NCBI GenBank assembly: GCA_016192075.1
Contig: JACPUU010000012.1
Span: 496,001-560,000, forward strand
Source: Bacteroidota bacterium
Lineage (GTDB): Bacteria; Bacteroidota; Bacteroidia; Flavobacteriales_D; Crocinitomicaceae
Length of the DNA stretch: 64,000 nt
Direction of reading: 5' to 3'
In this document: piece by piece, positions 46,372-49,873 of the stretch
Layout: every line of letters starts with the position of its first letter
Numbering within the stretch: the first letter of the stretch is position 1
Notes under the pieces: generated by a model
The model's input: the letters and a program-made list of their open reading frames with translations, nothing else
What the model was told of the DNA's origin: nothing
Databases searched by the model: none
Position numbers and translations under genes: made by a program

Positions 46372-48990
46372 ATGCAAGATTACATTACAAATACAAACCT
46401 CCCCATTGTTGACGTTCTCCCTGAACTTCAGCTTGGTCTTGCTCAAAACGCAACCCTGATTTTGAGCGCTCCGCCCGGCGCCGGAAAAAGTACGCTGGTT
46501 CCGCTGGAATTATTGGATGCAGCATGGTTGGGCAATCAAAAAATTATCATGCTTGAACCGCGCCGGCTGGCTGCAAAAACAGTTGCCATGCGTATGGCTG
46601 ATTTGCTGAATGAATCAGTTGGTGAAACGGTGGGCTATCGCATTCGTTTTGAGTCACGCGTATCTGCCAAAACCAGAATTGAAGTAGTCACTGAAGGAAT
46701 TCTGACCCGCATGCTGCAATCAGACAACTCGTTGGAAGGTGTTGGTATTGTTATTTTTGATGAGTTTCATGAACGCAGCATTTTTGCCGATGTTGCACTG
46801 GCACTGAGCCGTGAAGCGCAACAGATTCTACGCGAAGATTTGCGCATCCTGGTGATGTCAGCAACGTTGAATCTGACAGAACTAAAAACATTACTAAACG
46901 CACCCGTTGTTGAAAGTTCAGGAAAACAATATCCGGTTGATTTGATTTACACCGATCAGCAGGATGAACGCCTGATGGCTGAAGTCTGCGCGCAAACAGC
47001 GATACGGGCCCTGCGTGAACAACAAGGAGATATTTTGATTTTTTTACCCGGCGAAGGTGAAATTCGTAAATGTGAAGAAATTCTCCGTAGCATGGGGTCG
47101 CGACCCTATGCTACGGAGAACATATCGCGACCCCACACCACGGAGAATCTGGAAATTCATCCACTCTACGGAAATCTGCCGCCGAATCAACAAATGGCAG
47201 CCATTATGCCATCGCGCAGCGGCGCGCGAAAAGTTGTCATTGCCACCTCTATTGCAGAAACCAGTTTGACCATTGAAGGCATTAAGGTTGTCGTAGATTC
47301 CGGTTTTGGGCGTGTGCAAAAATTTGATCCGCGTTCTGGTTTATCTAAATTAGAAACCATTTTAATTTCCAAAGACAGTGCTGATCAACGCGCCGGTCGT
47401 GCGGGAAGGTTATCTCCCGGAGTCTGTTACCGCTTGTGGTCAAAACCGGCACATGCACGTCTGGCTGATCACCGGAACCCTGAAATCATTGAAGCGGATC
47501 TGGCATCGTTTGTTCTGGATATGGCCATGTGGGGTGTGAAAGATATTAATTCACTCACGTGGCTCACTCCTCCTCCACCGCATCACGTAAAGCTTGCTAC
47601 CGAACTGCTGGAAGAACTCAATGCCCTTGAACCTGTTGTAGGGTCCGGTCGCGATCAAATTGTACGGTCCGGTCGCGACCGGACCCTCACAGAACATGGA
47701 AAAAAAATGCATGCGTTGCCTTGTCATCCGCGCATTGCGCACATGATGCTGATGGCTGCCAATATGCGATCAGGTAGTGAACGGTCCCTGACACTGGCGG
47801 CTGATATTGCAGCCCTTTTGGAAGAGCGCGATCCTTTGGGAAAAGAAGGAGGCATTGATATTAATTTACGCATTGAAGCCATGCGCCGGCAGCGCAGCAG
47901 AACCTCTTCGTCCTCTGCCAAAGGAGGGGCCGGGGGAAAATTCGGGCGCATTCTAAAAATAGCCGAACAATACCGTAAAATGTTTGACGCACCTGAAAAT
48001 AACGATGCTGTTGATCCATTTGAAACCGGCGTTTTACTGGTATATGCCTATCCTGAACGTATTGCTTTTGCAAGACCTGGCAACAATGCACAATTTCAAT
48101 TATCAGGCGGTAACCTGGCGATGGCCTCACACCAGGACGACCTGGCGCATGAGCCCTGGCTGGCAATTGCAAACCTGGATGCACGCGACGGCATGGGAAA
48201 AATATTTTTAGCCTCCCCGTTAAATCCTAAAGACCTGATGCCGCTTTTGAAAGAACGCGAAATCATTACCTGGAATACCAAAAAAGGCGGACTCACTGCA
48301 GCGCGCGAAACACGGCTGGGAAGTATTGTTTTGAAATCAACGCCGCTGCCAAATCCAAACCCGGCACAAATTCAGCTGGCTATTTGCGAAGCCATTCAAA
48401 AAGAAGGCGCGCATTTGCTGGACTGGAATAATGCTGTTACACAATTTCAAAACCGCATTCTTTCTTTAAAGAAGTGGAATGAAAACCAGGATTGGCCGGA
48501 TGTTTCCACATCCACACTACTCGCTCAAACGCAAGACTGGCTTTTACCTTATCTCAACAATATCAAGTCAAACGATGATTTGAAAAAGCTGAATCTGCAT
48601 GATATGCTGTACCATTTTCTTGATTTTGAAAAACAGAATCTGCTGAATAAACTGGCACCTACAAAACTTGAAGTTCCCAGCGGATCACAAATTACCCTGG
48701 AGTATTTTGCCAACGGATCAGCACCGGTTTTGGCTGTGCGTATTCAGGAAGTTTTTGGACTCGAAGACACACCTGCAGTAAACAACGGAAAAGTAAAAGT
48801 ATTGATGCACTTGCTTTCACCCGGCTATAAACCCTGCCAGATTACCGGTGATTTGAAAAACTTCTGGCAGAACACGTATTTTGAAGTCCGTAAAGAATTG
48901 AAACCGCGTTACCCCAAACACGCCTGGCCGGATGATCCGTGGAATCACCCCGCTATTCGCGGAACGAAAAAACAGAATGGATTAAAATAA
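46372..48990 (+). CDS. hrpB: ATP-dependent helicase HrpB (DEAH-box family)
   Basis: APPGAGKSTLVPLELL, EPRRLAAKTVAMRMA, DEFHERS, SATLN, DQRAGRAGRLSPGVCYRLW; C-terminal RYPKHAWPDDPW. Confidence 0.93.
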   Translation: MQDYITNTNLPIVDVLPELQLGLAQNATLILSAPPGAGKSTLVPLELLDAAWLGNQKIIMLEPRRLAAKTVAMRMADLLNESVGETVGYRIRFESRVSAKTRIEVVTEGILTRMLQSDNSLEGVGIVIFDEFHERSIFADVALALSREAQQILREDLRILVMSATLNLTELKTLLNAPVVESSGKQYPVDLIYTDQQDERLMAEVCAQTAIRALREQQGDILIFLPGEGEIRKCEEILRSMGSRPYATENISRPHTTENLEIHPLYGNLPPNQQMAAIMPSRSGARKVVIATSIAETSLTIEGIKVVVDSGFGRVQKFDPRSGLSKLETILISKDSADQRAGRAGRLSPGVCYRLWSKPAHARLADHRNPEIIEADLASFVLDMAMWGVKDINSLTWLTPPPPHHVKLATELLEELNALEPVVGSGRDQIVRSGRDRTLTEHGKKMHALPCHPRIAHMMLMAANMRSGSERSLTLAADIAALLEERDPLGKEGGIDINLRIEAMRRQRSRTSSSSAKGGAGGKFGRILKIAEQYRKMFDAPENNDAVDPFETGVLLVYAYPERIAFARPGNNAQFQLSGGNLAMASHQDDLAHEPWLAIANLDARDGMGKIFLASPLNPKDLMPLLKEREIITWNTKKGGLTAARETRLGSIVLKSTPLPNPNPAQIQLAICEAIQKEGAHLLDWNNAVTQFQNRILSLKKWNENQDWPDVSTSTLLAQTQDWLLPYLNNIKSNDDLKKLNLHDMLYHFLDFEKQNLLNKLAPTKLEVPSGSQITLEYFANGSAPVLAVRIQEVFGLEDTPAVNNGKVKVLMHLLSPGYKPCQITGDLKNFWQNTYFEVRKELKPRYPKHAWPDDPWNHPAIRGTKKQNGLK
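47081..47147. repeat. GTCGCGAC-core palindrome plus half copy, in frame inside hrpB
   Basis: TTCTCCGTAGCATGGGGTCG|CGACCCTATGCTACGGAGAA (47081-47120; 20-bp arms, 1 mismatch), then half copy TCGCGACCCCACACCACGGAGAA (47125-47147). Confidence 0.8.
47640..47687. repeat. GTCGCGAC-core palindrome with upstream half copy, in frame inside hrpB
   Basis: GGTCCGGTCGCGACCGGACC perfect palindrome (47666-47685); outer AGGGTCCGGTCGCGA (47640-47654) pairs with TCGCGACCGGACCCT (47673-47687). Confidence 0.8.
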
Positions 48991-48999
48991 ATCGTTACC

Positions 49000-49039
49000 C
49001 GTGTAGTAGATGCAAGTCGCGACTTGTATCTACTACACG
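49000..49039. repeat. GTCGCGAC-core palindrome, intergenic, immediately 3' of hrpB
   Basis: CGTGTAGTAGATGCAAGTCG|CGACTTGTATCTACTACACG; 20-bp arms with 1 mismatch. Confidence 0.8.
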
Positions 49040-49400: not shown

Positions 49401-49630
49401 CCGGTTAACTGAGCGTATCTGACACTTAACCGGTCACTGAGCGTAGCAGACACTTAACCGGTCACTGAGCGTAGCAAACTCTTAACCGGTCACTGAGCGT
49501 AGCCGACACTTAACCGGTCACTAAGCATAGCCGACACTTAACCGGTCACTGAGCGTAGCAAACTCTTAACCGGTCACTGAGCGTAGCCGACACTTAACCG
49601 GTCACTTCGGCTACGCTCAGTGACCGGTTA
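49401..49630. repeat. 28-bp tandem repeat array ending in a perfect 24-bp inverted repeat
   Basis: Unit AACCGGTCACTGAGCGTAGCMRACWCTT at 49428, 49456, 49484, 49512, 49540, 49568 (degenerate copy from 49401); TAACCGGTCACTGAGCGTAGCCGA (49567-49590) inverted at 49607-49630. Confidence 0.9.
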
Positions 49631-49873
49631 ACGGTATCCGAAATCTCTTTTAATGGGTGTAAGTAAAGATTCCAGCCCATTCAGTTTGATTTCATACATG
49701 GTTGACAGCAAAACGCCAATATTGCCGGGCGGAAACCCCTTGCCGCTGTACCACACCAGGTAAAATTCAGGCAAATCACAAACCAGCCTGCCCTTGTACT
49801 TACCAAAAGGCATGCGCGTTGTTACCAGTTGAATCATAATTTTGCGGTGATCAGGAAGCTCCACGGGCGCCAA
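49628..49873 (-). CDS. DUF3820 family protein
   Basis: TRMPFGKYKGRLVCDLPEFYLVWYSGKGFPPGNIGVLLSTMYEIKLNGLESLLTPI. Confidence 0.8.
   Translation of the reverse strand: MAPVELPDHRKIMIQLVTTRMPFGKYKGRLVCDLPEFYLVWYSGKGFPPGNIGVLLSTMYEIKLNGLESLLTPIKRDFGYR

Follow-up and report, generated by a model that had tools for sequence, protein, structure and literature searches.

Double-foot REPs, associated with TnpA_REP subclass 2.4, are abundant in Cyanobacteria and Bacteroidetes, and some have inserted into RAYT genes without a shift of frame (Quentin et al. 2018, PMC6006769). The RAYTs of this subclass carry the motifs NH[IFV]H, WQ and YIxNNP, and DHVH is also given for subclass 2.7 (PMC6006769). The main text of Di Nocera et al. 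2013 (PMC3733652) names genes for DnaE2, an RNA helicase and tRNA synthetases as hosts of GTAG REPs, with feet that supply TAG stops, and mentions a CGTC REP in Rickettsia dnaE. Template switching is a process that both creates and maintains perfect stems (PMC8794818). Here, we describe palindromic insertions in the hrpB gene of a member of the Crocinitomicaceae, located in a 64-kb stretch of DNA, the whole of which is called the window. Very probably, the hrpB insertion is a 'double-foot' GTAG REP-type mobile element that was mobilised in trans by a RAYT, persists as an in-frame loop passenger and had its arms rewritten by template switching.

The hrpB gene (46372..48990, plus strand) encodes an ATP-dependent RNA helicase of 872 aa, as indicated by the ORF, a full-length HrpB match of its product (TIGR01970, 963 bits) and the comparison with homologues, and its frame is intact despite two in-frame palindromic insertions. 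Site 1 is a 40-bp palindrome at 47081..47120 with GTAG/CTAC feet (CCGTAGC..GCTACGG), the halves of which, TTCTCCGTAGCATGGGGTCG and CGACCCTATGCTACGGAGAA, form 19 of 20 pairs (95%) without a loop around the centre GTCGCGAC (47097..47104), which a genome-wide family comparison identified as conserved. The even-palindrome score of site 1 is 17, compared with a maximum of 11 in 100 first-order resamples of the window, and as folded single-stranded DNA its stability is far above that of shuffled sequences (z -7.8). The outer arms TTCTC/GAGAA extend into the host EEILR codons. A diverged half copy consisting of one arm and the centre follows on the minus strand at 47125..47148; it pairs with 47080-47103 at 88% and is read as SRPHTTEN, and site 1 plus half copy are translated in frame as RSMGSRPYATENISRPHTTENLE. 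Thus, the preliminary description of this DNA was right in reporting a near-perfect in-frame palindrome at this position and in tracing the second repeat peptide to the half copy. A search with the exact 12-mer GGGTCGCGACCC yields a single hit in the genome and misses the family, which we defined by the shorter centre GTCGCGAC and paired arms.

Site 2 (about 47638-47687) is likewise in frame and is composed of the half copy GTAGGGTCCGGTCGCGA, an arm plus centre at 47638..47654 on the plus strand, and the full palindrome GGTCCGGTCGCGACCGGACC at 47666..47685, which together encode the extra residues GSGRDQIVRSGRDRT. Site 3 is a 40-bp palindrome (49000..49039) with the same centre at 49016-49023, situated in the intergenic region just past the hrpB stop. 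Its feet are GTAG..CTAC; at site 2 the half copy keeps GTAG and the foot of the full copy is degenerate. Further downstream, the window contains a tandem array of seven copies of the 28-bp unit ACTGAGCGTAGCAGACACTTAACCGGTC (49408-49606), closed by an inverted copy at 49607-49631.

Pattern searches covered the 4.65 Mb genome, of which about 1.13 Mb was also read in stretches. The genome has few GTCGCGAC sites, 22 compared with 132 of the reversed control, and most of them are element centres: 16 lie at the centre of a palindrome that broadly follows AGGN5GTCGCGACN5CCT and has GTAG/CTAC feet, degenerate to varying degrees. Three further palindromes centred on GTCGTGAC or GTCGCAAC were found in the 1.13 Mb that were read, giving at least 19 in the genome; C12:272706 and three GATCGCGAGGTGTCGCGAC-like repeats were left out of the family as different. 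Six of the 19 are intragenic, namely two in hrpB, two in a dnaE-like gene, one in a pyruvate dehydrogenase E2 linker and one at the rsmI C-terminus; the dnaE and E2 sites were assigned solely from ORF and domain. The other 13 are intergenic at a distance of up to about 35 bp from the 3′ end of a gene, and at seven of them the TAG of one foot is the stop codon of a neighbouring ORF. Similar palindromes elsewhere in the genome, including inside ORFs, are what the preliminary description had led us to look for. Among 240 genomes of the taxonomic family, 22 contain the pattern AGGN5GTCGCGACN5CCT and 1 contains its reversed control.

Forty-two distinct elements, selected only by AGG...GTCGCGAC...CCT, served for a test of the arms: the five free positions per side were paired in 87% of cases, compared with 42% (sd 3) when the right arms were swapped, and several different, fully paired arms were present within single genomes (G063, G000). 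For the pairing beyond the foot, we took 59 elements on the basis of their inner arms; in most of these, arm positions 8-10 are A-T, T-A and G-C. Positions 13-16 were paired in 61% versus 27% (sd 3%), and the excess was gone by about position 22. The centre and foot are therefore conserved, the arms are free yet paired, and pairing continues a few bases into the host DNA. Five loci show the same composite, in which a half copy that stops at the centre is separated from a full palindrome by some 4-13 bp: hrpB sites 1 and 2, dnaE (G000:C17 about 62680), G000:C8 about 68790 (C8:68814) and ileS of G092 (L201). The half copies likely arise by replication slip at the hairpin.

The origin of the outer arms can be examined in a gene that, from its LAWTTTPWT motif, we take to encode isoleucyl-tRNA synthetase (IleS). 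The loop before this motif contains an in-frame TCGCGA element in three genera (G036/G081, G023/G084 and G224), contains other palindromes in G053, G092, G001 and G105, and is empty in G050, G130, G134, G040, G112, G017 and G062. Across the ileS loci L111, L112, L123, L130 and L189-L217, this loop is a hotspot in three genera: palindromes of several families, each with its own centre, have entered it, and one genus can include both occupied and empty sites. The reverse complement of the conserved right flank CATTTTTTGGC recurs, minus one base, as the left outer arm GCCAAAAATG in G081 and G036. The empty sites of the same genus (G050, G130, G134) possess this right flank and lack the left reverse copy, which favours fold-back copying of the host flank and disfavours insertion into a pre-existing hairpin at IleS. 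Several intergenic copies lie in terminator-like hairpins, e.g. C19:201422, and for these a ready-made hairpin may have been the chosen target. At site 1 of hrpB, the left flank ATTCTCCG is part of the conserved EEILR codons (GAAATTCTTCGT in the homologue L011), so that the GGAGAA on the right is probably the reversed copy.

Y1 transposase genes were inspected in ten pattern-positive genomes. Weakly scoring genes in G063, G154, G069 and G117 adjoin GTCGCGAC palindromes (GTTGCGAC in G154), whereas IS200-like ones do not. The four RAYTs scanned match NF047646 REP_Tyr_transpos with E 1e-14 to 1e-17, under the curated cut-off, and a profile built from those of G063, G154, G069 and G117 detected relatives in 85 of the 240 genomes. 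TCGCGA-centred palindromes flank the clade around this profile, and more distant RAYTs are accompanied by palindromes with GGGCATGCCC, GGAAAATTTTCC, GAATGATTATTC, CAATGCATTG and other centres. In 14 related genomes (G063, G154, G069, G117, G112, G017, G081, G036, G050, G130, G115, G084, G001 and G053), palindromes of the same kind as in hrpB are located beside or within a RAYT gene, and in G081, G036, G050 and G130 the element lies in frame within the RAYT gene itself. In a tree of 26 RAYTs, TCGCGA and the other centres are split by a 100/99 branch, with the one-base variant of G154 as the sole exception; the centre label changes 2 times on this tree versus 7.2 times when shuffled, and none of 500 shuffles was as low. 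The clade is characterised by the motifs DHVH/DHAH, WQ or WH in most members, and YI..NP.

The search for a RAYT suggested in the preliminary description was thus successful in related genomes, where a cognate clade bears the same palindromes, but not in the host genome, where none of the RAYT-like genes inspected is flanked by GTCGCGAC. As these genes carry other centres or none, the cognate RAYT of this genome is missing, lost or unrecognised, and the hrpB copies may be relics. Other Y1 genes of the genome (L104, L106, L108, L177, L178) have flanking palindromes of their own, and in several of these the centre is conserved and the arms vary but are paired (CCCGGGAATTAATTCCCGGG, GCGAGCGTCCCGCTCGC, GCGCAGGACAnnnTGTCCTGCGC, GGAAAATTTTCC).

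In line with the short loop that the preliminary description gave for other HrpB proteins, the residues of site 1 are missing in ten HrpB homologues from the same family and in E. coli HrpB (6eud); relative to these, the HrpB of the window has about 13-15 extra residues at site 1 and 15 at site 2. The nearest hrpB with an empty site is only about 62% identical, and the insertion event and its exact ends are hence not directly readable at this gene. A scan of genome contigs for named close relatives returned HrpB from Stenotrophomonas alone, and the host genus is without a second genome. In two Stenotrophomonas species (L055, L057), the site 1 loop contains an unrelated insert of about 36 residues encoded by hairpin-forming DNA (CCCCTCCCCCTCCGGGGGAGGGG; CCTTCTCCCGCAGGGAGAAGG). 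Judged from these sequences, the HrpB loop at site 1 is an example of a protein loop that tolerates such cargo. A structure prediction from five sequences drew both inserts as coil, with a mean pLDDT of 42 and a pTM of 0.28, too weak to rely on.

The inserts or their RNA hairpins might have been co-opted to regulate hrpB or to alter helicase activity, as three copies in or next to one gene could suggest and in line with the speculation, in the main text of Di Nocera et al. (PMC3733652), on a function of REPs in replication, repair and RNA-binding genes. We regard this as unlikely, given that the sites lie in length-variable loops and that different genes read the centre in different frames, all three being used (SR, RD, VA), with peptides that differ between sites, which argues that no particular peptide is kept. 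Furthermore, Rfam yielded no family at gathering score and only three sub-threshold matches, one of them (mir-1329) over the palindrome, which we take as chance. The simplest account is that the extra HrpB residues would be neutral passengers.

Rickettsia palindromic elements (RPEs), which the preliminary description had compared to this insertion, are similar in that palindromic DNA lies in frame inside many genes and the proteins stay functional, just as the copies studied here lie in frame in several unrelated genes whose proteins are left intact. That the family is a selfish palindrome of this type, gene-invading in its own right and unrelated to REPs and RAYTs, is nevertheless highly improbable, because the majority of copies, with their GTAG feet, lie between genes at 3′ ends and because the family is linked to a single RAYT clade, while RPE-4 and RPE-6 are CGTC-tagged and CGTC REPs are without a transposase link according to the main text of Di Nocera et al. 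(PMC3733652), a difference that rests on the descriptions. The mobile in-frame palindrome proposed in the preliminary description is supported, but of the described elements the nearest to it is the double-foot GTAG REP, not the RPE. Growth of the HrpB loop by local duplication and template-switch errors, with a hairpin formed by chance, would suit the arm homogenisation and half copies, which resemble the template switching known to make perfect stems (PMC8794818), and the long loop in Stenotrophomonas, but it is equally improbable and as a full explanation already refuted by the genome-wide family, with the 8-bp centre and GTAG feet common to at least 18 other loci of the genome and to 21 other genomes. 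The resampling, in which no palindrome of such strength arose by chance, also speaks against it.

For the double-foot GTAG REP, we propose an element unit consisting of a GTAG foot, a short variable arm and the conserved palindromic centre GTCGCGAC, followed by the mirror image. It would be mobilised, now or formerly, by a RAYT from the clade that is flanked by the same palindromes; RAYTs are HUH tyrosine transposases that act on single strands. Landing would occur mostly at gene 3′ ends, and intragenic copies would persist if they are in frame and in a surface loop. After insertion, the arms would drift and stay complementary, most likely via fold-back template switching at replication; the same process would reverse-copy a few host bases (TTCTC to GAGAA) and leave a half copy beside the full copy as a recurrent by-product. 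It is conceivable, though we hold it only tentatively, that the mobile unit comprises just the centre and foot, each RAYT clade recognising its own 8-10 bp centre, and that the remainder is rewritten by fold-back copying during or after insertion. In that case, host flank would become palindrome arm, and intragenic copies would create protein segments consisting partly of reversed host sequence. The family bears on the way in which a RAYT selects its REPs and on the causes of covariation in REP stems. The presence of many RAYT clades with clade-specific centres in one bacterial family makes the recognised bases directly testable, and the IleS loop, filled and empty in the same genera, makes the insertion event readable.

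Compared with the described systems, the family shares with the double-foot REPs of subclass 2.4 the GT[AG]G at the 5′ end with its complement at the 3′ end, the long stem, the location flanking RAYT genes and the in-frame insertion in such genes (PMC6006769), but differs in that the centre GTCGCGAC is conserved, the arms vary freely and bases beyond the foot, in host sequence, are still paired. In the RAYT clade, DHVH stands where subclass 2.4 has NH[IFV]H, and the clade may belong to this subclass or to another one. With the GTAG-tagged REPs, as presented in the main text of Di Nocera et al. (PMC3733652), it has in common the GTAG foot, alternative complementary stem residues, the location at gene 3′ ends, the TAG stops and DnaE, RNA helicase and tRNA synthetase hosts. 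The foot is unpaired in canonical GTAG REPs, whereas here it pairs with CTAC and the pairing extends further, and HrpB, rsmI and pyruvate dehydrogenase E2 are not named as hosts in that main text. In-frame insertion of a palindrome or REP is thus already known, and the hrpB element adds one more member; what goes beyond these papers (PMC6006769, PMC3733652, PMC8794818) is that each RAYT clade has its own palindrome centre while the arms covary freely, that host flank has probably been copied in reverse, and that one loop of IleS has been hit repeatedly.
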